In this document: one piece after another, positions 10,002-34,700 of the stretch
Numbering within the stretch: the first letter of the stretch is position 1
Layout: each line of letters opens with the position of its first letter
Virus record (IMG/VR): IMGVR_UViG_3300033148_004724
Location: 1 to 34,720 of that record
Direction: 5' to 3' (one strand)
Origin: a virus
Length of the DNA stretch: 34,720 bases
Notes under the pieces: model-generated
The model's input: the letters and a program-made list of their open reading frames with translations, nothing else
Told to the model about the DNA's origin: nothing
The model's database searches: none
Translations under genes and position numbers: made by a program

Positions 10002-10553
10002 TTATGCAGCATTAATTATTGCATTTATGATTGAACTGTCCATTTCATAAACAACATGTTGCTCATATGAAGTAAAAACAATACCAGCTCCACCGAAGTC
10101 GTCAACAGCTGTTCCAGTCATTAAAGAACCTGAATTCCAATAACCCCCACGTCTAAATCCTAAACAGAAATAACGTCCATTGTTATCTTTTACAATAATT
10201 AAATTTCTAGATTTTGTCATATTATCTAGTTGGTATCTACTAATACCATCATTTTTTGGAATTTGCGCTGTTAATTGCACTTCCCATCCAGCACGACCAT
10301 TTTCTAAAACAAATCTACGATTTTCAACAAAATTAGAAGAATTTTCAGCTACCTGAATTTCTTGAAATAAATCTGTGGTCGCAGAGCTTGATAAAGCTAT
10401 AGCAGTTATTGTATGGGCTGTATCGTTAACAGTAAATCCATTTGTCAAACTAGAAGTGTCTAAGTTTGAGTGTTTCATTGAATATATCGTATCAATTCCT
10501 GACAAATCTTCAATACAGTCAAGTGAAATTGGTAACCAGTTGTTACAAGCCAT
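10002..10553 (-). CDS. Major tail tube protein
   Basis: 183 aa. Starts MACNNWLPISLDCIEDLSGI; the middle contains the beta strands and helix of the tail tube fold (NRRFVLENGRAGWEVQLTAQ, LIIVKDNNGRYFCLGFRRGG), and it ends with EQHVVYEMDSSIINAIINAA. Gene length and position directly after the major capsid gene fit the tube subunit of a long non-contractile tail. It is bracketed by hairpins at 10588-10610 and 9943-9977, consistent with a discrete, abundant transcript. Confidence 0.7.
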   Translation of the reverse strand: MACNNWLPISLDCIEDLSGIDTIYSMKHSNLDTSSLTNGFTVNDTAHTITAIALSSSATTDLFQEIQVAENSSNFVENRRFVLENGRAGWEVQLTAQIPKNDGISRYQLDNMTKSRNLIIVKDNNGRYFCLGFRRGGYWNSGSLMTGTAVDDFGGAGIVFTSYEQHVVYEMDSSIINAIINAA

Positions 10554-11577: not shown

Positions 11578-12096
11578 TTATTTATTTTCTTCTTCTTCTT
11601 TTAAAGCTTGAACAACTGCTTCTAAGTTAGCAGCTCTTTTTTCCCATTGAGGAACTTCTTTTTCTTCTTTATCTTCAGTTTCAGCACTGTGAGTAAAAGT
11701 TTTTCCACTTGCTTGATTACCTAATTCTTCAATTTGTTTCTCAAGATTTTCTTTATCATCTTTAAAAGCAGTTACAACCTGAGTTAACATTTCTTTTAAA
11801 TCTGAAATTTCATTTTTAAGATTTTCAATCTCTTTCCCCTCAGCTTCAACAATTTCTTCAGCTTCTTTGTGGGCTTCGTCAATTACTTCATCAGTAGTTT
11901 CGTCAGTCACCTCTTTTTCAGTAGTTTCTTCAACCACTTCATCAACGATTTCTTCAGTTACTTCTTTTTCAGTAGTCTCAACAGTTTCATCAATTACTTC
12001 TTTTTCAACTACTTCATCAACGATTTCTTCAGTAGTTTCGTTTTTCTTACCTTTTAGTAAGTCAACTATTTTTTCTTTGAAAGTTTTTTCAGCCAT
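11578..12096 (-). CDS. Scaffolding protein
   Basis: 172 aa and strongly acidic. Residues ~20-75 are a degenerate repeat of EEIVDEVVE and TTEKEVT units; ~80-130 form a coiled coil (ENLKNEISDLKEMLTQVV, then KENLEKQIEEL). The C-terminus is charged. The composition, helical nature and position between protease and capsid genes fit an internal scaffold. It probably fills the prohead and is removed by the protease. The Ser-rich ORFs on the opposite strand are mirror images of its Glu codons. Confidence 0.7.
   Translation of the reverse strand: MAEKTFKEKIVDLLKGKKNETTEEIVDEVVEKEVIDETVETTEKEVTEEIVDEVVEETTEKEVTDETTDEVIDEAHKEAEEIVEAEGKEIENLKNEISDLKEMLTQVVTAFKDDKENLEKQIEELGNQASGKTFTHSAETEDKEEKEVPQWEKRAANLEAVVQALKEEEENK
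11885..12040. repeat. Degenerate tandem repeat in the scaffold gene
   Basis: Imperfect copies of a unit encoding EEIVDEVVEKEV-like acidic peptides. Repetition is visible in both DNA and protein; such tracts can change length by slippage while staying in frame. Confidence 0.55.
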
Positions 12097-12909: not shown

Positions 12910-15606
12910 TTATAATTCTGCACGATTTTCAATAACTTGCGTATTTTGTTGAGCATTTGAAATATCTCGTTCAAGTACATACGTTCTAATATTAGCCTTT
13001 ACAGCTTGACCAAGTAAATCATAATCAATAATTGATTGTCCTGCATTAAGTTTTTCTATATCAGGTAAATAGCGACTTGTTATATCTTTATTCACAATAT
13101 ATTCACCCCCTTCTGCCTCATCTCCTGTAGCAAGGGTAATACCTCCATTTGCGTGACTTTTCCCTTGTAGAAGACCGCCATCGGCAAACTTAGCACCAGA
13201 AATCGCAGTAACTTGAGTAGCATATATTCCAGTTAATAATGCTGAATGGGCTGCTGCCCATATTGGGTTCATATCAGTAGTCCAAATTTTCAATAAACCA
13301 GAGGCTAAATTAATTGTAGCTTGGAAGATTGCTAATTTCTTTTCTCTGTCAGCTTTTTCTCTTTGAGCTTTTATTTCAGCAGCTTCTCTTTTATTATCAT
13401 ACTTAATATTTATAGCATCAATATCTTTCTCGGTTAGATTTTTATTACTTAACTCACTTTCACGATTTGCTTCATTTCTTTTTAAACTTTTTTCTAACAA
13501 TTCTTCTTCTTTAGCATTTCTGGCATCTAACATATTACCCCACATGTCTCCAATTGCATCGGTAACAAATTTAACATTATCAATTATTTTACCAAGTTCA
13601 TCATCAGAAATATCAAATAATTCAGCTAGGGGGGATTTTTTATCTTCAGTGGTTGTATATTTTTTATTCACAGCATCAATATCAGCATACATTTTTTCTG
13701 TTAAAGATGTAGTATCAAAACCAAATTTTTTAGCCATTTTTATTAATTCAGCATATTGATTTTGTAATCTTAATATTTCGTCTTCTTGTGCAATTAAACC
13801 GATATATTGTTTTTCATCTTCTATTTTGTTAAGTATCTCTAATATTTTTTCTCTCTCACTTATTTCTGTATCACTCAAAACTTCAAATGGTGATTTACCC
13901 ATCATATCAGGACCATCAAATGCTTCATATTCTTCTTTTGCAACTTTAGTCTTTTTATATGCTTCATATAATTTTTCAATTGATGCGATTTCAGCCTTTT
14001 TCTGTTTAATAAGAATAACATTTTGTGCTCTACCAGCCTTATCTGTTAATGCTAAACTTAATTTAATTTTTTCTAATGCTGATAATTCCTCTTTTAATAT
14101 TTGAAGGTTTCTATTTTGTGTCTCGATTTCACCACCATCTGGTTCTCCATCACCACCAGCAGTTTTAGATTTACCCATAAAGATTTCTTTTGCTTTATCT
14201 ATCTCTTTTTGAGCTTCTTCTGCTGCAATTCTAGCTTTTGCTAAATCATCTGTTGCTTTTTTCCATCTGTGTCCCCATACCGCCTGTGCGTCTCCAAGTT
14301 CACCCCAAATCTCATTTATCGTCTGTTTACCAACTTTACCACTTTCCCTCATTTTAGCAAACCCCTCGTTCCAATTCTTTGTAAATTCATCCATTGAGCC
14401 AGATGCTTGTAATTTTAAGAAAAATGATTGAACTTCATCACCACTATCTTTAAATTGTTTTCTTAGGTTTTTAATATTTTCTCTCATTTCACGACCTTTA
14501 TCTGTTGCTCTTCCAACAGCATCAGCATAATCATCGAAAATATCACCATAACTTTCTTGAAATGATGTAAACGCAATTTTTTGTAATTGTTGTTTATTAT
14601 ACTCCACCAAATTAGCATTTAATTTATCATATGCAATTGTTTCAGCATTAACACCTTCAACAATTTCTGGACTTATTCTCGCTAATTCATTATAAATCTC
14701 TTTTTTCCTTTCAGCTGTAGTATTTAAATCTTTAAATTCACCAACTAATAAATTAACTTGGTCTTGTTCTTTCTCTAACGCATCAGTTAATGGTGTGCTA
14801 CTTTCGAACATTTCATTCATCCAACTAACAACATCACCTGCAGCATCAACAAAAGGTCTTAAACCCTCTAATATAACACCACCAATATTTTCTTGTAAAT
14901 CTCCAAATGAATTAGATAATTGAGTTAAACCACCATCTGCTTCTGCAGCAGCTTTTGCTTGCCCACCATATTGTCTCTCTAGTTCACTTAAAATAACCCC
15001 TTGTGCCTCAGCTAATCTATTAGTTTCTGCTAAATTTTTAATAACTGCTTTTTGCTCCTTTGAAAATTGAATACCAGAACGTGATAATGCACTTAAGTTA
15101 GCTACGGGGTCATTCAACGCTTTACCTAGTTGTAAAGATGCTGATTTTAAATCACCATCCAATACAGTAGCTAAATCTAATGCAACCCTTTGTGTTCGGT
15201 CAAATTCTTCATTGGCAATATTCGTAAATGTTAATAATTGAGCTGTTACATTATTTAATATATCTTCATCACCAAATAATGTTTCCTTTTGAAGAGCACT
15301 AGCTTTAGCAGTTAATTCATCAAATGATTTTCCAGCAGCTTTATTTGTTGAAATAATAGCTTGTTTTACTTTAGCTTCCGCTTTAGCTTGAATTTGATAG
15401 GCCTTTACACTTGCCGCAGCAAATTTAACAACTCTATTAACCGCATATGCGGCACCTATAGCAATACCAAGTTTTTTAAAACCCCCAATACCATTATTAG
15501 CAGTTTTGTTTATATTGGATAATTTCTTATCCATAGTATTTAACTTTTTATTATTAGCTTCAACATTTGCTAATAACAATTCAATTGTTACTTTTTCTTT
15601 TGCCAT
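12910..15606 (-). CDS. Tape measure protein
   Basis: 898 aa, the second largest protein. It begins with a coiled coil (LLANVEANNKKLNTMDKKLS), has a hydrophobic stretch near residue 48 (LGIAIGAAYAVNRVVKFAAA), long helical and Glu/Lys-rich repeats in the middle, a second hydrophobic region (~785-820) and a C-terminal Gly-rich part (KFADGGLLQGKSHANGG) typical of tape measure proteins. By the rule of about 1.5 angstrom per residue, the tail would be near 135 nm. Unusually, the tail assembly chaperone is not encoded just upstream but 14 kb away. Confidence 0.85.
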   Translation of the reverse strand: MAKEKVTIELLLANVEANNKKLNTMDKKLSNINKTANNGIGGFKKLGIAIGAAYAVNRVVKFAAASVKAYQIQAKAEAKVKQAIISTNKAAGKSFDELTAKASALQKETLFGDEDILNNVTAQLLTFTNIANEEFDRTQRVALDLATVLDGDLKSASLQLGKALNDPVANLSALSRSGIQFSKEQKAVIKNLAETNRLAEAQGVILSELERQYGGQAKAAAEADGGLTQLSNSFGDLQENIGGVILEGLRPFVDAAGDVVSWMNEMFESSTPLTDALEKEQDQVNLLVGEFKDLNTTAERKKEIYNELARISPEIVEGVNAETIAYDKLNANLVEYNKQQLQKIAFTSFQESYGDIFDDYADAVGRATDKGREMRENIKNLRKQFKDSGDEVQSFFLKLQASGSMDEFTKNWNEGFAKMRESGKVGKQTINEIWGELGDAQAVWGHRWKKATDDLAKARIAAEEAQKEIDKAKEIFMGKSKTAGGDGEPDGGEIETQNRNLQILKEELSALEKIKLSLALTDKAGRAQNVILIKQKKAEIASIEKLYEAYKKTKVAKEEYEAFDGPDMMGKSPFEVLSDTEISEREKILEILNKIEDEKQYIGLIAQEDEILRLQNQYAELIKMAKKFGFDTTSLTEKMYADIDAVNKKYTTTEDKKSPLAELFDISDDELGKIIDNVKFVTDAIGDMWGNMLDARNAKEEELLEKSLKRNEANRESELSNKNLTEKDIDAINIKYDNKREAAEIKAQREKADREKKLAIFQATINLASGLLKIWTTDMNPIWAAAHSALLTGIYATQVTAISGAKFADGGLLQGKSHANGGITLATGDEAEGGEYIVNKDITSRYLPDIEKLNAGQSIIDYDLLGQAVKANIRTYVLERDISNAQQNTQVIENRAEL

Positions 15607-23055: not shown

Positions 23056-26000
23056 TTATTCAGGTTTATTTACAGTATCACTATCAATATAATCTGGTAA
23101 ATAAATTTGATTTTCACCTGGGTTATTTATACATGCATTACTGAATAATGTTTGGACGCAATCTATACCAGGATTGTTAACTTGACTAGCTGCTGTTATA
23201 TTTCCATTTTTTATTTTTACACCAGAAATAAATGTTGAACCGCTGTCAGCAGAAGAAATTGTTTTACTTTTTTCATTTATTACAACTACATCATTTGATA
23301 ATCCTTCAATTTTTACTCCTTCACCCCCAATAATAACTGATTTATTGGTTGCAGATGAACCTTTTCCCCCTAATACTATACCACCATCTTTACTTGTACT
23401 GTTATTACCAACTACAAGCGAGGGGGTTGTATTCCCACTACTATTAATTACTGTATTTTTATCACCTATAAGAACACCATGTGAACCTTCTTTAGCAATA
23501 TTGTCTCTACCAATCATAACACCTATAAATGGGTCAGTTGGTATTGAAATTCCAATTGAACTATCTATTGAAGTACTGCCAGTAACAAAATCAACAGCAA
23601 TATCAGTTTTCTTTAATAACTCAACCTCTGTTAAATATTCTCCCCCAGGGATATAATCTCTAATCTTATTTATAATATAATAAGTATCGCCAACTTGAAT
23701 AGTATCTGACATTGTTGTTTGAGCAATAATATTATCAGTTAACCTTAACTTCATTCTTACTAAACGAGCATCCTTATCACTAATTTCATCAAAATATCCT
23801 TTCCAAAATTGATTATATAAATTATTATTAGTACTTGTATATGAGGGGGTTAAAGGAAACATTCCTTGCCACACCTGATTTCCATAATCATAAAAAGCAG
23901 TTTCAAAATTTAAATCACTAGCTTGAGTTTGGTCAAAAACTTTAGCTTGATGGCCAGCAAATGGGTAATAATAATCACTACCAATTTTATAATCTTCTGT
24001 TTCACCTTCAAGTCTAAATTTAAATGTTGGATTATCATTATTATAAAACTTTGTTGGATAAAAGAATAACATTCTATTTCCAATCTCAGTATTTTTTACA
24101 TTATTTTCTTTTCCATTATTATCATTTCCATCATAATTTGTTGGATTTATTTCTGTATAAATTGCAGTTGTATGACCATCATTAGCTTTTGTTCTCCAAC
24201 TTTTTCTCATTACAGATGGTTTGATTGATAATTCTATTTTTTGTTCCCCCTTAATAAAATCATTCTCAAATATTCTTCGCTTACCACCATAACCTACGTC
24301 ATTAACATCTTTCTTGTCATTATAATAACCATTCCAATAATCATCAGCATCAGCATATTTTAATTTAACTTCTTTCTTTTGTAATTCTTGGGGGTGTTTT
24401 GAAATTATGTCACTATCATAATCAACTAAATCTGACCAATTTTGTGTGGTACCATAATTACTATAAAAATTCTTTCTACTTTCAATTAATAATTTTCTTG
24501 GATTTTCTTTATCAACATCAATGTATAAATTAAACATTAATAATGCATCATTAACAAAATCTCTTATAGTATAGTCTTCTGGAATAAAATTATTACCTAA
24601 AACTTCAGCATTTCGACCCCATCCTAACTCTTCAACTTCTATCCACGAATATTGTGCTTGAATTTCACTTGCATCTCTACCTCCTTCTTGAATAAGTTTC
24701 CAACCTATCATATCTCCTTCTTCACAATTAAATATATGTTCATAATTTTCAAAACCGTGTGAACCAACATGTAAACTTGGTTCTGTCATAATAAAAAAAT
24801 CTTTAACTTCTTCTTCAACAGAATGTTTTATAAACCCATCATGAGAAACTGAAGCATACGCTTCGGAAAGTAGAGGTTCTATATTTGTTTTTCTAAGTCT
24901 AAAAGCTACTAACCTTAGTGTTGAATAATAACCAGAAATTGGTGTACCATGTAGCTTTATAATTTTATGCCTACATTTTATTTTATGTTCTCCAGCTTTT
25001 CTTACAGTATAAGTACCAGGTATAACATTAGTTAATGAGTTAGGACCTTCAACTATCCACTCTATTGGGTCTTCATAAACATCAATTGAAGGTTCTAAAC
25101 TATTATTAAACCTATTAAAATAATCTGTAACTTTTGTAAAATCTTTTGCTTGAATACCACTTTCAGCAAAACTAACACATCCATCAGCATAAGTCCCGCC
25201 AATAGATGGGTGTCCACCACCACTACCAAACCACCAATATTTATAATCATCTCGCAATGAATTACTTCCAGCTAAAGGGACATATTCTTTTGTATATATT
25301 CTTCCAGTTGTATTTTGATATTTAGCCACACTTCTCCAATCATATAATCTTTCTTCCTTACCAGTAAATGGAAGAATAATTGCGTGATATGTACTAGATG
25401 TAAACATCCCTGTATACTCATATCCAAACGAAGTCATTATATTATCCCAAACAGCTTTAAATGTCATTGCAGGATATAAATCTGATACTGTTAACCCAAT
25501 GTTAGACATAGGTCTCTCTAAGAGTGTTCCTGGTTTATATATATCATCTTCATCTGTTATTGTTCCTATTTCACCAACGAAACCACCCCAACCTTCACCG
25601 TAATCAATATATGGATAACAAAAACCTCTACTACTATATAAGTTAGTAACTGTTTCTAAATCAGCTGTATGATTATATTCTGACCAATCTAAATCTGATA
25701 ATTTCTTATCCCCAAAATCAATAAATAAACTTGGTACATCACCATAAAATACTATATCATATAATATTTCATCATTTTTCTTAATAATTTCATTTAATTT
25801 AATAAACCCATTAGCCAACTCAGAAGAGTTAGATAAAATTGAAGCCCTTGTTTTAGAATTTACATTAAACTTATTTTCCGAATTAATTTCAAAAATATAA
25901 TTAAAAATTTTATTATTATTATGGTCACCAGGTACCGTAAATGTTTTTGAATATGTTCCACTTCTTTTTGCGGGGTTTTTAATATCGGCAACATTATAAT

Positions 26001-26439
26001 TTAATGCTATATTAATATTTTCATTTAAACTAACTTCTTCGGGGGAAATTTGTTCAATTGTTAATTCGGTGATACCAAATACATCATCAACATCTCCATT
26101 TCTTAATTTAAATAAATCACTATCACCACTATCTAATATCCACTCATACTCAACACCATCAGTAATAGTCTCTGTAATTGAATTATCCCCCACAGATACT
26201 TTTAATGAACCTGTACAATTACTATATCTTCGAATTGCTTTTAATTTAACTCTATATTTTGTATTTCTTTTTAATAAGTTTTTAGATACAGTCGAATAAG
26301 CCCACCCCATCCAAAAAACAGAAGATAATCCCTCATAGTTTTCTTCAGAAATTACATTTGAACTTGAAAAACCATTCCAATCTAAATAATTTGTCCAATC
26401 TATTTTGTAAATTGGATATATGTAAAGTTGTGTATTCAT
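23056..26439 (-). CDS. Large tail tip/central fibre protein
   Basis: 1127 aa, the largest product. The first ~300 residues include a segment typical of Bacteroidota phage tail proteins (NPAKRSGTYSKTFTVPGDH, then SELANGFIKLNEI), the middle resembles baseplate or tail-tip hub domains with many aromatic residues, and the last ~150 residues carry YadA-head-like repeats (FIGVMIGRDN, GVLIGDKNT, KSVIIGGEGV). It is encoded between the smaller tail protein and the fibres and is the best candidate for the tail-tip hub that the fibres attach to. Confidence 0.65.
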   Translation of the reverse strand: MNTQLYIYPIYKIDWTNYLDWNGFSSSNVISEENYEGLSSVFWMGWAYSTVSKNLLKRNTKYRVKLKAIRRYSNCTGSLKVSVGDNSITETITDGVEYEWILDSGDSDLFKLRNGDVDDVFGITELTIEQISPEEVSLNENINIALNYNVADIKNPAKRSGTYSKTFTVPGDHNNNKIFNYIFEINSENKFNVNSKTRASILSNSSELANGFIKLNEIIKKNDEILYDIVFYGDVPSLFIDFGDKKLSDLDWSEYNHTADLETVTNLYSSRGFCYPYIDYGEGWGGFVGEIGTITDEDDIYKPGTLLERPMSNIGLTVSDLYPAMTFKAVWDNIMTSFGYEYTGMFTSSTYHAIILPFTGKEERLYDWRSVAKYQNTTGRIYTKEYVPLAGSNSLRDDYKYWWFGSGGGHPSIGGTYADGCVSFAESGIQAKDFTKVTDYFNRFNNSLEPSIDVYEDPIEWIVEGPNSLTNVIPGTYTVRKAGEHKIKCRHKIIKLHGTPISGYYSTLRLVAFRLRKTNIEPLLSEAYASVSHDGFIKHSVEEEVKDFFIMTEPSLHVGSHGFENYEHIFNCEEGDMIGWKLIQEGGRDASEIQAQYSWIEVEELGWGRNAEVLGNNFIPEDYTIRDFVNDALLMFNLYIDVDKENPRKLLIESRKNFYSNYGTTQNWSDLVDYDSDIISKHPQELQKKEVKLKYADADDYWNGYYNDKKDVNDVGYGGKRRIFENDFIKGEQKIELSIKPSVMRKSWRTKANDGHTTAIYTEINPTNYDGNDNNGKENNVKNTEIGNRMLFFYPTKFYNNDNPTFKFRLEGETEDYKIGSDYYYPFAGHQAKVFDQTQASDLNFETAFYDYGNQVWQGMFPLTPSYTSTNNNLYNQFWKGYFDEISDKDARLVRMKLRLTDNIIAQTTMSDTIQVGDTYYIINKIRDYIPGGEYLTEVELLKKTDIAVDFVTGSTSIDSSIGISIPTDPFIGVMIGRDNIAKEGSHGVLIGDKNTVINSSGNTTPSLVVGNNSTSKDGGIVLGGKGSSATNKSVIIGGEGVKIEGLSNDVVVINEKSKTISSADSGSTFISGVKIKNGNITAASQVNNPGIDCVQTLFSNACINNPGENQIYLPDYIDSDTVNKPE

Positions 26440-27789: not shown

Positions 27790-28107
27790 TTATTTTGCTT
27801 TTATTTTATTATATTTTTTTGTAAAATCTTTTATTATTTGAACTATATCTTTTGCATAAGCATTTGATAAAGGTTTTGTTAATATATGTGCGAAATCTTC
27901 AATAGTTAATATATAAGGGGTGTCCCAAACTGTTGATAAACTTCCATAATCAAGAAAACTTGTAGTTATTCTATCACTTTTAAATGAAGAATTTATACTA
28001 TTACGTAATGCTCCTGTCTTAACATGAACTTCCCCCTTGAGGTCACGCTCTAAACGCTTTGACCCAAGCTGCATTGCTTTCTCTATATGTTTATATTTAT
28101 TATCCAT
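27790..28107 (-). CDS. HK97 gp10-like tail completion/neck protein
   Basis: 105 aa. The motif HVKTGALRNSINSSF is the signature segment of the HK97 gp10 family, small neck proteins that join the head to the tail; length fits. The start codon overlaps the preceding stop by one base (TAATG). The K-G-E triplet in this gene is written AAG GGG GAA, giving a run of five G in an otherwise AT-rich gene. Confidence 0.65.
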   Translation of the reverse strand: MDNKYKHIEKAMQLGSKRLERDLKGEVHVKTGALRNSINSSFKSDRITTSFLDYGSLSTVWDTPYILTIEDFAHILTKPLSNAYAKDIVQIIKDFTKKYNKIKAK

Positions 28108-29159
28108 TATACTATGTTAGTCATTTTTTCAATTTCAACTGTAAGTCCGAGTGTTTGAACATATCTAGCCATTTCACCTTGCACAGTTGTGTTTCCACTT
28201 TTATAAATAACAACAGAAATAATATCGTAAAATATTTCACCAGTGTCTACCACTGTCACTCTTATTTTATCACCAATACTATATTCTACTGTTAAGTCTA
28301 CCCCAGCATAATATATACTATTCCAATCATTTTGAAATCCTCTTCGAGGGGTTGAATAATCTGCTGTTGTGAATGGTGTTAATTTAGCAATTCGCTGATA
28401 AGCCTTTGCCGCAAATTGATTATAATCAATATGTAAATACCATTTGTCAGAGAAATCTTTCTCGATAATCGTATGTAGGGTTATACCTTCTGCAACTCGT
28501 ACAGGATTAGCTACTTGATATCCCACATATATTTTGTCTTCAATTTCAACATTTGGTTCAAAATCAAAATCGCCTAATTTTGAATATGTTGGAAAATCTT
28601 CTCTAACACTGAAATCTGTTGAGTAAATATAAATATCATCAACTGATGCAATATAATATTTAAATTCTGTTGGTGTTACAGGTGTTTCAATAGATGAAGC
28701 AAATGCTGTGTGACATAATGCCCCATTGTATACTTGAAATTCTATTGTAGTAGACCATCCCGCCATTTTCTGTGCATAATTACCTATTGTGGGGGTTGGT
28801 GTAGTTTCCCTTACAATTGTAAAACCATATGAATTTTTAAAACTTCTTGAACTTAATCTTTTTACTATATCAGAAACTATTTGAGCTGTGTCTGACATTA
28901 CATCAAGCACATTTTCATCCCCATTATCAAGTAAGTCTAAAATAACCATATTAAACCTGTATGTCGTTAATGTTGTTCTAACATCACTTTCTTCGGGGGT
29001 TAACCACATAAGAGCTCCATCAACATCTAATTCATTTATGTTTGATTGTTCACCAAAGCCAAATTTATTAATTTGTAAATGATTAGGATAGTGTCCCCTA
29101 TCTTGTATGCTTATATCCTTAAGGGCATCAACTATTTTTTTTAATGTTGTAACTTTCAT
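28107..29159 (-). CDS. Probable tail terminator with extra C-terminal domain
   Basis: 350 aa. The first ~150 residues have the alternating alpha/beta design and TTYRFNMVILDLLDNGDEN and MAGWSTTIEFQVYNG segments seen in tail terminator proteins of Bacteroidota phages. The remaining ~200 residues, rich in beta strands, are additional and unidentified; standard tail terminators are 120-180 aa, so this looks like a fusion. It lies next to the tail completion gene, as expected. Confidence 0.5.
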   Translation of the reverse strand: MKVTTLKKIVDALKDISIQDRGHYPNHLQINKFGFGEQSNINELDVDGALMWLTPEESDVRTTLTTYRFNMVILDLLDNGDENVLDVMSDTAQIVSDIVKRLSSRSFKNSYGFTIVRETTPTPTIGNYAQKMAGWSTTIEFQVYNGALCHTAFASSIETPVTPTEFKYYIASVDDIYIYSTDFSVREDFPTYSKLGDFDFEPNVEIEDKIYVGYQVANPVRVAEGITLHTIIEKDFSDKWYLHIDYNQFAAKAYQRIAKLTPFTTADYSTPRRGFQNDWNSIYYAGVDLTVEYSIGDKIRVTVVDTGEIFYDIISVVIYKSGNTTVQGEMARYVQTLGLTVEIEKMTNIV

Positions 29160-29167
29160 AATTATAT

Positions 29168-29979
29168 TTATTTTAAACCTGCTTTATGTCTACCTGCTTG
29201 TTGTAATTTTTGTAAATTTTGTTGTTTAGTTTGTTCTATTTTTTGATTATTTTCAAAATCTTTCAAATACATAAGGTAAATTATAACTTCTTCAATTCTA
29301 ACTTTTTCAACTTCTCTAACAGTTCCATATGTTCCTTTTTCAGCGAGTTGCCAGATTGTGTTGTGCCACCCCCATTTTTTTGAGAAATCTGTAACTTCTC
29401 CACTTCCTGAGTTAAAGAAACTTGAGTATTTTTTAACAATTCTTTCTCTATGGTCAAAAAAAAACCCATAACAGCATAAACTTGGGGGGCAGTGATAGCT
29501 TTAAGTAGCTCGCTTGAATAAACCAAGGCCTTATCTGCATTATATTCCTCAAGTAAATATTTATCCCCAACCTTCTCTTTAATTGGTCTAATAAATACTG
29601 GTAATACAGTACTTAAATTTTGTATACCTTTTGTAAAACTTTCAATACCTACTGTTTCTAACCATTCCCCCACAGTTACAACATCTTCATTAAATATAGC
29701 ATATTCAACCCCTTCTATTTGTAGGGTAAAATTAGTACTAGCACCCTCTGGGTTTTTATCAAACAAGAAAGATATTTTTGGATATATTTTATTAATAATA
29801 TCACCATCAATATGTTTAACAAATTCTTGGGGGATATCAGCAACAATAGCTATATAATCCCTTACTATATCAACATTTTCTCTTTTATCAGTTTGAATGT
29901 TTAGAAGTTTTTCTAGCATTTCTCCATCAACATCTTCCCACATTGTTGGAAGCTCTATATCTTTAAGTTCTACTTTCAT
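29168..29979 (-). CDS. Tail assembly chaperone, -1 frameshift fusion (270 aa)
   Basis: At 29374-29380 the message reads CAA AAA AAT GGG GGT, with the slippery heptamer A AAA AAT in phase. Slipping back one base after residue 202 opens 68 further codons to a stop at 29168-29170. The added part (WHNTIWQLAEKGTYGTV, then EEVIIYLMYLKDFENN) is helical and protein-like, with no stop codon between. It overlaps the last 94 bases of the 0 frame gene and fills the otherwise empty gap before the next gene. This matches the gpG/gpGT pattern of lambda-type tails. Confidence 0.7.
29281..29979 (-). CDS. Tail assembly chaperone, short (unshifted) product
   Basis: 232 aa. Helical, acidic protein with no membrane segment; it ends with a Lys/Glu-rich helix (MELLEKLKKLELKKL). 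It is placed where gpG-like proteins occur and contains a slippery site near its end (29374-29380). Proteins of this kind bind the tape measure protein and are absent from the virion. Its leader has the recurrent TAATATAGATAA motif. It follows TerL by 26 bases. Confidence 0.6.
   Translation of the reverse strand: MKVELKDIELPTMWEDVDGEMLEKLLNIQTDKRENVDIVRDYIAIVADIPQEFVKHIDGDIINKIYPKISFLFDKNPEGASTNFTLQIEGVEYAIFNEDVVTVGEWLETVGIESFTKGIQNLSTVLPVFIRPIKEKVGDKYLLEEYNADKALVYSSELLKAITAPQVYAVMGFFLTIEKELLKNTQVSLTQEVEKLQISQKNGGGTTQSGNSLKKEHMELLEKLKKLELKKL
29374..29380 (-). promoter_or_regulatory. Slippery heptamer for -1 ribosomal frameshift
   Basis: Minus strand A AAA AAT, directly followed by a run of five G and then TGGC. 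X XXY YYZ phase is correct for the reading frame of the 232-aa gene. No strong downstream hairpin was found by eye; the G-run may help pausing. Confidence 0.65.
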
Positions 29980-30005: not shown

Positions 30006-31340
30006 CTATTCATCCATTAAATATTCAACATCTTCGATTGAAATGTTACCATCTTCTATTTCATTTGTATCTTTATTTGATAGGTAATACAATGAGTTTG
30101 AAAGACTAACACGAGCAAGATTAGCTAAGCAAAGAGCGATAATAGTATCATCTTTCTTTGTCCCCTTATTTTTGCCAGAATATTTAATTGTATGAGTTTT
30201 AATATTATATTCATATCCAAATTGTTTTAATTCTTGAATAAGTATATCAATATTATCTATTAATTTTTTTGTTGGTAATTTTATTGTTTTATCTTGAAAT
30301 TCGGGGATTAGTTTTTCAACATAATCTTTTTTAGATTGGTTTGTTGTTTTAATTGGGAATATTGCCCCATATTTCTCTTGTATAAGTTCATATACTGTAT
30401 TTTCAACATTTGTTTCTATATAAGCCTGAGCAGAATACTTTTTGAGAAATGCTATAAGCTCTTTTGCTATGTCTGTATATTTTACCCCCTGCGTTCTATA
30501 CATATCAACAACCTCATTTTTATTATTTAAGATAACACATACTGTATAATCATTTATTTGAGCAAGGTCAATCCCTGCATAGTAAGCTACACCTGGTTCA
30601 ACAATTCCCCACTTAATTGGCCATATAGCACAATCATCTACATTTTCAAATACAACTCCACCCCCTTCAATAAATTCTGCTAAATATTCCTGACGAAATA
30701 CTTTTTCAATCATTGTTCTCTTTGCACTTTGAACTTCTTTATGATTATAATAAGGATTTTCGTGATATTTACCATGGTAATAAGCCCAATCTTTATGGTC
30801 TGGTGATTGACCAAGCATTGCAAATTCATAAAACTTATTATGTCCAAAGGGGGTTGAAGTATAAAATGCTTTTCTTCCCGCTACAGCTAACATAGGTCTT
30901 ACAACTTCAGCTACTGCATCTCCATCCATAAATGATAATTCATCAATGAATAGGTAATTAAAGTTTTTCCCCCTCTTGTTTTTTATTTTCTCTGCAGATA
31001 GGAAAACAATCGAGCTGCCATTAATTAATAATATTTCTAGGTTTGTTTTATTTGCACTTGCAATTAACCCAGTATTTTCTAAAGATTTTTTAAGTTCTGT
31101 AAATTGGTCTCTTCCTAAAGAATATGTGGGGGAAATATAACCCACCTTTGAGTTTTTCTTATTTAATGCATAATATCTCATAAGTTCTTGAAACAGAACG
31201 GTTTTACCGAACTGTCTTGAACAATTGATAACATTATGCATTACATTGTTTGCAAATATTTCTTTTTGGATACGTTTTTGCCCCTCATGGAGTTTTATCC
31301 CCTTAATCTTTATCTTCTTCTTCGTCATTATCTTCGCCAA
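30006..31340 (-). CDS. terL: Terminase large subunit
   Basis: 444 aa. ATPase: Walker A C-SRQFGKT (residues 41-47), Walker B LFIDE (130-134), coupling motif TSTPFG (161-166). Nuclease: D258 in YAGIDLA, E309 in YIETN, D397-D398 in KKDDTIIA. All the key acidic residues are present, so it should cut and pump DNA into proheads. Start overlaps the TerS end by 38 bases; M5 (31328) is an alternative start. It is followed by the tail assembly chaperone, not the portal. Confidence 0.95.
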   Translation of the reverse strand: MAKIMTKKKIKIKGIKLHEGQKRIQKEIFANNVMHNVINCSRQFGKTVLFQELMRYYALNKKNSKVGYISPTYSLGRDQFTELKKSLENTGLIASANKTNLEILLINGSSIVFLSAEKIKNKRGKNFNYLFIDELSFMDGDAVAEVVRPMLAVAGRKAFYTSTPFGHNKFYEFAMLGQSPDHKDWAYYHGKYHENPYYNHKEVQSAKRTMIEKVFRQEYLAEFIEGGGVVFENVDDCAIWPIKWGIVEPGVAYYAGIDLAQINDYTVCVILNNKNEVVDMYRTQGVKYTDIAKELIAFLKKYSAQAYIETNVENTVYELIQEKYGAIFPIKTTNQSKKDYVEKLIPEFQDKTIKLPTKKLIDNIDILIQELKQFGYEYNIKTHTIKYSGKNKGTKKDDTIIALCLANLARVSLSNSLYYLSNKDTNEIEDGNISIEDVEYLMDE

Positions 31341-31728
31341 TTGTGTAGCTTATATCAATACTTCCATCTATTTCAACTCTATCAGCTTCATTATACCCAA
31401 GGGATTTAAGTAGCATCTCATTAGCTTTAAGTACAGCGGGTAAATTTCCACTAGCAAAAGCCTCATTTCTAGTTTTTATAATATCTTGAATGATTTCAGA
31501 TTTAGAAATTTGATTATTGATGGGGAGGGCTTCAAAGTCAGTGATATATTGCTGAACACTGGATTTTTTAAGAAGTTTTGAACCATCACTACCAGCATAC
31601 TTTCTATTATCTGTCTGATATGCAATCATATACGCCCTTGTGGCATTATAAGCATTAAGGACGTATTGCTTAGCAAATTCCCTATGTTTACGTTCAATTT
31701 TACCTATTTTTTTAACTTTTTCATCCAT
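31303..31728 (-). CDS. terS: Terminase small subunit
   Basis: 141 aa when started at the ATG at 31728 (MDEKVKKIGK). The longer reading from 31794 would overlap the preceding gene and add an unlikely stretch; the chosen ATG has a typical AT-rich leader. The N-terminal helix-turn-helix (FAKQYVLNAYNATRAYMIAY) and LLKKSSVQQYI are the hallmark of the Terminase_2-type DNA-recognition subunit. The C-terminus is acidic (GEDNDEEEDKD). Pairs with TerL encoded directly downstream. Confidence 0.8.
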   Translation of the reverse strand: MDEKVKKIGKIERKHREFAKQYVLNAYNATRAYMIAYQTDNRKYAGSDGSKLLKKSSVQQYITDFEALPINNQISKSEIIQDIIKTRNEAFASGNLPAVLKANEMLLKSLGYNEADRVEIDGSIDISYTIGEDNDEEEDKD

Positions 31729-31747
31729 TATTATATGTTTTTTATGT

Positions 31748-32323
31748 TTACTTATATGTATTATACACCATTTTAAGGGCTTCAAATATATCATTAAATA
31801 TACAATCAGAACAATCTCTTTGTGCTATTTCAAAATAATCATTATATAAAGCAAAAATTTTACCCCTGCTAGGAGCACTCATTGGGTATATTCCCCCTAA
31901 TGCATCATACAATTCAACTATCTCATCTATTATTTTACCCTTTGACCTTTCTCTTGTTAATTTTTTATAGTGTTTTTTATCACTCATATCTATTTCTTCT
32001 TCAGTTTCAAGTTCAACCTCTATCTTTTCAACTTCAGGTTCTACTTCTTCTTCAGTTTCAAATTTAACCTCTACCTTTTCAACTTCGGGTTCAATTTCCT
32101 CTTCAATTTTATATTCTTCAACTTCTTTAACTACCTTGTCCAGTTTTGTTTCTTCAATAACTTCTTCTATTACCTCATTAACTTCGTTCTCTTGAACGTT
32201 CTCTGTTTCTTTAATGGTTGGTTCATTTTCTTTTTGCTTGCTCTTACAAGACACCATATGCATTTCTAAACCCCTAAGAGATTTACAAATTTTACCACAA
32301 TTATCACATTTGAATTCTTTCAT
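31748..32323 (-). CDS. Zinc-finger protein with acidic repeats, 191 aa
   Basis: N-terminal zinc finger: C6-x2-C9-x12-H22-x3-C26 (C2HC). Residues ~55-105 are an acidic, repetitive spacer with two 17-residue copies (EPEVEKVEVKFETEEEV and EPEVEKIEVELETEEEI). The C-terminal ~75 residues form a separate helical domain (KIIDEIVELYDALGGI). It lies just upstream of TerS, so a role in DNA packaging or late gene control is plausible, but no family is recognised. Confidence 0.6.
   Translation of the reverse strand: MKEFKCDNCGKICKSLRGLEMHMVSCKSKQKENEPTIKETENVQENEVNEVIEEVIEETKLDKVVKEVEEYKIEEEIEPEVEKVEVKFETEEEVEPEVEKIEVELETEEEIDMSDKKHYKKLTRERSKGKIIDEIVELYDALGGIYPMSAPSRGKIFALYNDYFEIAQRDCSDCIFNDIFEALKMVYNTYK
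31995..32100. repeat. 51-bp tandem repeat in the zinc-finger gene
   Basis: Two tandem copies of a 51-bp unit code for EPEVEK(V/I)EV(K/E)(F/L)ETEEE(V/I), with a few base changes. In-frame length variation is expected between relatives. Confidence 0.6.
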
Positions 32324-32346: not shown

Positions 32347-32883
32347 CTATATTTTTTCTTTGATTTTGTTTCTCACTCTTTTTACAGCCTTCCACACAGT
32401 TGTGTAGGGTATACCAGTTAAATCTTCTATTTTTCTGTAGCTATATTTATTTAAGTAGTATAATTTAAATAGGAGGACTTCTCCGCTATCTGGGGGATAT
32501 TCTGTGTTAAGTATAGACATTACTTCATTATAATTTTCTTGTTGAATTGAATAGAATTGTTCATCATTTTGTTCTTGTTGGGGTTGGATGTAAGTTATTT
32601 CAAAATTATTCTGGTAATACAATTTCCCCTTTGCTATATATTTTTTATAGAAGGGGGAAGTTACACTGTTAGCTTGAGTGTGTATCACATACCCTAAGAA
32701 GTATTCTGTGTTTGCTGTAAATTGTGCCCACTCTAGGTTATAATTTAATTTATCATCCATATAATCTATTACATCGTGTAATAAATCTCCAGATAGTTCT
32801 TTTTTCGTTTTTAAAGATTTTTTGGCCATTCTAAGCAAATGGTCATATCTTAAGTTTATGTATTTTTCAAAGGTTTTATTCAT
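32347..32883 (-). CDS. Sigma-70 region 4-like HTH protein
   Basis: 178 aa. The C-terminal ~55 residues (SGEVLLFKLYYLNKYSYRKI, then EDLTGIPYTTVWKAVKRVRN) have the helix-turn-helix of sigma region 4. The N-terminal part is helical (YDHLLRMAKKSLKTKKELSG) but lacks a clear region 2. It may guide RNA polymerase to late promoters or act as a plain DNA-binding protein near the packaging genes. Located directly upstream of the zinc-finger gene. Confidence 0.65.
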   Translation of the reverse strand: MNKTFEKYINLRYDHLLRMAKKSLKTKKELSGDLLHDVIDYMDDKLNYNLEWAQFTANTEYFLGYVIHTQANSVTSPFYKKYIAKGKLYYQNNFEITYIQPQQEQNDEQFYSIQQENYNEVMSILNTEYPPDSGEVLLFKLYYLNKYSYRKIEDLTGIPYTTVWKAVKRVRNKIKEKI

Positions 32884-34151: not shown

Positions 34152-34700
34152 TTAATTATACTTTTCAACGAATTTTTTTATGATTTTTTTTGCTCTATGA
34201 ATTCTAATTCTCACATAACCTTCTGATTGACAGATTGTTTTAGCTATTTCTGAATAATATTTTCCTTCTAAAAAAAGTGTAAATATTTCTTTATCTACTT
34301 CATCGAGGGTTTGAATTGCTAATAAAACTAAGTCAAGCTTTTCGTTTTCTGGGGGATATATTGGTGGGACTGATACCATCTCATCACATTCTTCCCATTT
34401 AACATCATTAGCATTAATAAGTTCTCTTTCACTCTTTCGCATATAATCAATAAAACAATTCTTTGCTGTCTTATATAATAAACTACACCATACTCCTCCA
34501 TAATCTTCAAAGGTTGGATTGAGTGGGGGGAATTTGAATGATATGGCTGTTTTTGCTACAGCTTCGACTGCTACTGTTTCTTTGTTATATTGATTATATT
34601 TGTTTTTAACTAAAGTAACACTGTAGTCATATAATTCTTGGCCTTCATTCGTGAAATGATTAGACTGTATTCCCTCTATATGTTTTCTAGTGATTTCCAT
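34152..34700 (-). CDS. ECF-like RNA polymerase sigma factor
   Basis: 182 aa. Region 2 is at residues ~70-93 (WCSLLYKTAKNCFIDYMRKS, close to the usual tIArN..iDylRk) and region 4 at ~128-180 (LDEVDKEIFTLFLEGKYYSE, then IAKTICQSEGYVRIRIHRA). Both the -10 and -35 reading parts of a minimal sigma factor are present. It is the first gene of the leftward unit, so it could redirect host RNA polymerase to phage promoters. It crosses the end of the window, its start being repeated at 1-94. Confidence 0.8.
   Translation of the reverse strand: MEITRKHIEGIQSNHFTNEGQELYDYSVTLVKNKYNQYNKETVAVEAVAKTAISFKFPPLNPTFEDYGGVWCSLLYKTAKNCFIDYMRKSERELINANDVKWEECDEMVSVPPIYPPENEKLDLVLLAIQTLDEVDKEIFTLFLEGKYYSEIAKTICQSEGYVRIRIHRAKKIIKKFVEKYN

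Follow-up and report, generated by a model that had tools for sequence, protein, structure and literature searches.

A tail-assembly-chaperone-like gene beside the large terminase gene in viral DNA, with a probable -1 frame change at a run of nine T

Downstream of the terminase large subunit gene (TerL) of the viral DNA analysed here, two open reading frames overlap, which raises the question of whether they are joined in one product and, if so, where and by what means the frame is changed. The DNA is a stretch of 34,720 nucleotides (IMG/VR record IMGVR_UViG_3300033148_004724, positions 1 to 34,720), referred to below as the window. A reading made from the letters without database searches (the sequence-only reading) had proposed a tail assembly chaperone gene with a programmed -1 frameshift at the heptamer A_AAA_AAT. 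The letters on which it relied were verified, all on the minus strand: the heptamer occupies 29380-29374 in phase and is followed by five G, and the -1 frame is open for 68 codons past it (WGWHNTIWQLAEKGTYGTVREVEKVRIEEVIIYLMYLKDF...AGLK), ending in a stop codon at 29170-29168 that leaves 8 nt to the ATG of the next gene at 29159. The kind of gene proposed was retained following the present analysis and the slip site was replaced: the frame change was placed at a run of nine T (T9), 84 nt upstream of A_AAA_AAT and inside the same overlap. The in-phase heptamer T_TTT_TTT of this run corresponds to 29464-29458 (minus strand), the -1 reading resumes at 29458, and from T9 to the stop the -1 frame of the window is open throughout. 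The 270-aa fusion of the earlier proposal was borne out by frame reading and has this length whether the slip is at T9 or at A_AAA_AAT. The 0-frame part is referred to as G, the -1 part as T and the fusion as GT; coordinates are collected in Table 1.

Table 1. Coordinates of the chaperone-like locus and of the late genes discussed in the text (positions in the window).
Feature	Position	Strand	Details and basis
G-part gene, 0-frame ORF	29281..29979	minus	232 aa, the proposed short chaperone-like product
T-part, -1 frame	29168..29458	minus	96 codons plus stop, FDHRERIVKKYSSFFNSGSGEVTDFSKKWGWHNTIWQLAEKGTYG...AGLK
Conserved putative slip site	29456..29464	minus	GGT TTT TTT TTG, with the nine T on the coding strand
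T-part core motif	29366..29386	minus	F-S-K-K-W-G-W, conserved
A_AAA_AAT heptamer	29374..29380	minus	phase CAA AAA AAT, then GGGGG at 29373-29369
TerL, directly upstream of G	30006..31340	minus	phrog_2, E 2.9e-44; Pfam Terminase_6N
Probable terminase small subunit	31303..31794	minus	position directly upstream of TerL only
Gene after the T-part	28107..29159	minus	residues 24-145 homologous to the ~151-aa gene of relatives, E 6.2e-9 (Z=1000)
HK97-gp10-like protein / neck or tail completion protein	27790..28107	minus	phrog_5, E 3.7e-4
Tape measure, ~14 kb downstream of the chaperone-like gene	12910..15606	minus	phrog_27166, E 6.2e-60
Putative tail tube protein, next to the major capsid gene	10002..10553	minus	phrog_19091, E 1.2e-9; role from position

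The locus is very probably a G/GT-type tail-assembly-chaperone-like gene with a -1 change at the T9 run, encoding a 232-aa G and a 270-aa GT. Normal expression would yield G. A -1 change at T9, made in the minority of cases, would yield GT, in which the 96-aa T-part, predicted to be helical, replaces the 58-aa tail of G. By analogy with phage lambda, G would coat the tape measure protein and GT would recruit tail tube subunits. We infer both the expression of G and GT and the ratio between them; two overlapping frames that are conserved family-wide, T9 or T10 at their junction and dual-coding selection in the window are apparent at the level of the sequences compared.

Relatives (approximately 130 viral contigs and Bacteroidota genomes) were collected by profile searches. 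Single-sequence scans with the G, TerL, portal and 26441-27787 proteins of the window returned no or only remote relatives. The 23056-26439 protein led to the Nonlabens (Persicivirga) phages P12024L and P12024S. In P12024L, gp40 follows TerL and is itself followed by a 55-aa 'gene' in the -1 frame of gp40, KWGWYHTFNVIAASNGYFGLEKVEREPLGSILYWLAYQSD, which resembles the -1 extension of the window. This likeness between the window T-part and P12024L gp41 was the way into the family. Scanning with the P12024L fusion yielded 13 contigs, and with a six-sequence profile more than 500 matches were obtained, 80 of which were kept; three loci in Bacteroidota genomes were added. Using profiles built without the window, residues 7-174 of the window G matched the G-part of the relatives (E 3e-26) and the window T-part matched their T-part (E 2.6e-17).

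Both parts were present in 93 relatives. T lies in the -1 frame of G in 92 of these and is fused in frame in one, and profile classification places T of the window itself in the -1 frame of G. A second scan was anchored solely on F[SG][KL][KR]WGWY and was blind to the slip; some contigs were common to both sets, and the -1 arrangement was found in 74/74 distinct loci. By these counts the -1 extension is conserved, and the earlier suggestion that it behaves like a chaperone T-part was supported. Within the core motif, W is invariant and F, G and W are more than 90% conserved (51 aligned T-parts). Two related copies of the cassette, 85% identical, occur in Dysgonomonas sp. 520 (L105:7749-8510 and L106:7998-8752). 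In L106 the run is T9 and T lies in the -1 frame; L105 has T10, G and T fused in frame and a G-tail frame that is still open. The T10 of L105 is either a natural run-length variant or a homopolymer assembly error. Bacteroides phage BS-TP3 gp55, directly after TerL, seemed to be an in-frame G-T fusion and was set aside, its profile scores being not significant.

The overlap of every -1 locus contains an in-phase T_TTT_TTT within a run of 9-10 T, located about 86-122 nt upstream of the TGG of the WGW motif. Among 87 distinct -1 sequences (locus G+C 27-45%), the run is T9 in 80 and T10 in 7, and none is shorter or longer; the corresponding counts in the second scan are 59 and 15 of 74 loci. T occupies all three wobble positions of the run in 27/27 clusters (60% identity; log10 P approximately -17 from codon usage). 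In the late genes of the window that were checked, T9 at 29464-29456 is the sole homopolymer run of at least 9.

The run alone leaves the mechanism undecided, since T_TTT_TTT is a perfectly good ribosomal heptamer. RNA-polymerase slippage at T9 would produce an mRNA with one extra U (U10), placing GT in frame, and a stretch of 9 A or T is known to make the bacterial polymerase slip efficiently in vivo (PMC5009743). Selection also appears to act on the length of the run. Where codon 1 is GGT, AGT or AAT and thus contributes one T fewer, codon 4 starts with TT (TTG or TTT); this compensation was found in 5/5 such clusters versus 2/22 others (P 2.6e-4, cluster-level and not tree-corrected). The run is never 7 or 8 T and is kept when the register moves, which favours selection on run length because a ribosomal heptamer needs only seven T. 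Coding explains the outer T's partly: codon 1 mostly specifies V, L or I, and Leu or Phe is read in the -1 frame. In the L105 copy, with GT in frame and the G tail open, polymerase slippage could still serve.

The same G/GT pair would be obtained by ribosomal -1 slippage at T9, with two tRNA-Phe slipping in tandem on U_UUU_UUU and no stutter of the polymerase, and we give this route somewhat less than an even chance. The in-phase heptamer is there at every -1 locus, and -1 ribosomal frameshifting is the established mechanism of lambda-like chaperone genes (PMC5009743). Against it, a run of at least 9 is kept though 7 suffice, including the compensation on register shift, and no stimulatory structure was seen: downstream of the run, no consistent RNA structure was detected across 87 loci (mean z -0.23; pseudoknots lie outside the model), and none stood out upstream at the same loci under the same model. 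From these sequence patterns, polymerase slippage seems a little likelier than an even bet when set against ribosomal slippage on U_UUU_UUU, and both may contribute. The wider proposition, that a large family of Bacteroidota phages makes its chaperone pair via programmed RNA-polymerase slippage at a selected T9/T10 and not by ribosomal frameshifting, we regard as evenly balanced. If true, the chaperone ratio could be reached in a third way, beside ribosomal frameshifting and in-frame or separate genes, and a polymerase-driven cassette would let the setting of a protein ratio at the level of transcription be studied cleanly in a natural phage system. We know of no case of transcriptional slippage in a phage tail chaperone; neither such a case nor a report of a TerL-adjacent G/T cassette was found in the literature searched, subscription papers being largely outside its scope.

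A chaperone role is suggested by the architecture of the locus. This reading was adopted because the layout is that of lambda G/GT, with a G, a rarer GT, a small helical T, and terminator-like and HK97-gp10-like genes next. By its layout, the gene would act like a G/GT chaperone. G corresponds to PHROG 32199 and T to PHROG 38404, both catalogued without function; four members of the G family also reach phrog_166, 'tail protein'. Pfam contained no usable family for the G-part or the T-part, and the PDB no match to G by sequence or fold. Using hhalign, G did not match HK97 gp13 and T did not match lambda T, and VIA-align gave no fold above Z 2.9. An AlphaFold2 model of G residues 1-174 (pLDDT 82.5) matched many uncharacterised phage proteins, including G of P12024S, and one named 'tail assembly chaperone' only at E 0.1. 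For the T-part model, mean pLDDT was 70.

A structural neighbour resembling G (E 2.6e-4) is gp10 of Flavobacterium phage 6H (L191:10048-10927, minus strand), if this is BFVD entry R9VW65, an assignment made on length alone. The gap after gp10 carries no annotation and contains a -1 stretch, ...GLGMKGVLLSMAESGVYGPEQGV..., that is open and T-part-like; in phage 6H the overlap is tiny, and neither T9 nor a match to the T profile was found.

It is unlikely that the locus encodes a genuine frameshifted pair with another role, e.g. a packaging accessory pair working with TerL. Such a pair would fit the constant position beside TerL and the lack of homology to known chaperones, but the genes that come next are tail-terminator-like and HK97-gp10-like, the combination of a long G and a short helical T is a chaperone hallmark, and no other gene of the late region has such a layout (by inspection, which was not exhaustive).

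For a chaperone-like gene of this kind, the originally proposed slip at A_AAA_AAT (29380-29374), with T9 a relic or irrelevant in this phage, is very improbable. The heptamer is in phase and would likewise give the 270-aa fusion, but 13 other late genes of the window contain 6 further in-phase copies of A_AAA_AAT, so that the heptamer says little in itself. KKW is present in 26 relatives and AAAAAAT in 12 of them, where 12.4 are expected from their own codon usage. The sequence-only reading had named conservation of both heptamer and -1 frame in relatives as a check. Only the frame is kept (92/93), the heptamer being present in just 12/87, whereas T9 or T10 stands at the homologous upstream place in all -1 relatives and is retained in the window. 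A_AAA_AAT is therefore best read, on codon usage, as a coding by-product of KKW (AAA AAA TGG) and at most an auxiliary slip site.

The stretch between T9 and WGW bears on the same choice. The -1 reading of 29458-29375 contains KYSSFFNSGSGEVTDFSK, and the -1 peptide of the window from T9 to WGW, FDHRERIVKKYSSFFNSGSGEVTDFSKK, scored 31.1 bits against the profile of the relatives, while shuffles reached 6.5 at most. The region codes in frame 0 also, and therefore synonymous recoding was used: the interval of the window was recoded 3000 times with the 0-frame protein fixed. The -1 scores of the recodings had a mean of 9.7 and a maximum of 30.9, so that 0/3000 reached the observed 31.1, and 88% of the recodings introduced a stop into the -1 frame. 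The converse recoding test for frame 0 likewise gave 0/3000. Because neither test reached the observed score, both frames of the interval are taken to be under selection in the window. This is the expectation if G continues in frame 0 and GT leaves at T9. With a slip at A_AAA_AAT, translation would stay in frame 0 until the heptamer and the -1 reading of the interval between the two sites would never be made, so that conservation of this reading beyond the 0-frame constraint makes no sense. The locus suggests that a slippery heptamer may look convincing and yet arise from coding, with the real site 84 nt upstream.

That the T-part is translated separately from a start of its own, through reinitiation where G ends, as in the annotation of P12024L gp41, is extremely improbable: P12024L and P12024S do have an overlapping TAATG and an annotation as two genes, but between slip and WGW a T-frame ATG is present in only 13/87 relatives, the window has no ATG, GTG or TTG in the T frame before WGW, and the segment from T9 to WGW is conserved in the T frame. 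As T-frame starts are mostly absent, the two-gene annotation of P12024L and P12024S is probably a misread frameshifted gene. P12024L gp41 (L010:24473-24640) and P12024S gp39 (L011:23663-23830) are most likely the frameshifted C-terminal parts of gp40 and gp38, respectively.

The position of the gene beside TerL and about 14 kb from the tape measure gene, as noted in the sequence-only reading, was confirmed by PHROG matches. G/GT genes are usually, though not by definition, located between the major tail protein gene and the tape measure gene; in the window and in the relatives compared the cassette lies beside TerL instead. Compared directly with the window TerL, the upstream ORF of the relatives proved to be TerL in 14 loci, the window not counted, and the same identity was obtained in all ten further loci tested using PHROGs. 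The late genes of P12024L follow the order of the window: TerL, G/T, terminator-like, gp10-like, others, tape measure, protease, capsid, phrog_19091 and portal. As the relatives have TerL upstream and P12024L has the same late order, a place beside TerL and far from the tape measure is, judging by the loci compared, a property of the group. The departure from the classic order thus stands for this phage, and it is the rule among its relatives and not special to it.

Several observations were made on the neighbouring genes. In relatives, the ~151-aa gene downstream of the T-part is, by position, tail-terminator-like. The 28107-29159 product of the window has a C-terminal extension of about 200 aa beyond these homologues, in which no family was detected. 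phrog_19091 is a family without known function that is also the gene after the capsid gene in P12024L. phrog_27166 was not found in the contigs of the relatives, and the distances to the tape measure gene given here are those of the window and of the Nonlabens phages. A segment of about 200 aa of the tape measure (12910-15606) is 44-53% identical to its counterparts in phages of Rhodobacteraceae and Flavobacterium, a level far above that of the other structural genes searched, and is either mosaic or a strongly conserved domain; Winoviridae and Cronusvirus phages were rejected as relatives, having only the tape measure domain in common. Two sigma-70-like genes (32347-32883 and 34152-34700; Sigma70_r4_2, E 7.6e-5 and 2.5e-8, respectively) lie upstream of the packaging and tail genes, and P12024L also has a sigma-70-like gene before the terminase. 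Acidic proteins made of Glu/Val repeats, whose coding sequences contain near-repeats, are encoded at 31748-32323 and 11578-12096; the second gene precedes the capsid gene, as a scaffolding gene would.

The analysis proposes a likely function and mechanism for PHROGs 32199 and 38404, which are catalogued as unknown and occur in hundreds of viral contigs, and it suggests that tail chaperone genes can adjoin TerL, outside the view of annotation pipelines. Compared with known systems, the locus is like lambda G/GT and HK97 gp13/gp14 in having a short product and a rarer -1 fusion near the 3' end, an overlap of conserved frames and a place in a tail gene cluster. It differs from them in that sequence similarity is not detectable, in that the proposed slip site is a T9/T10 homopolymer, in its location beside TerL instead of just before the tape measure gene, and in a longer G (174 aa before the slip versus 128-140 aa for HK97 gp13 and lambda G). 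P12024L gp40-41 and P12024S gp38-39 (PHROGs 32199 and 38404) are homologous to G and T and share with the window T in the -1 frame, an invariant T9, the place directly after TerL and the same late order; their tape measure gene is about 6.4 kb away. They differ in being annotated as two hypothetical genes, in a G tail of 25 aa, in an identity to the window of only about 25% and in register (xTT TTT TTT T versus GGT TTT TTT TTG). Programmed transcriptional slippage at runs of 9 T or 9 A is described for Thermus dnaX and Shigella type III secretion genes (PMC5009743). As in these genes, a homopolymer of at least 9 in a coding region of the window gives access to a second reading frame; for the window, slippage at the run is a proposal drawn from comparison of loci.
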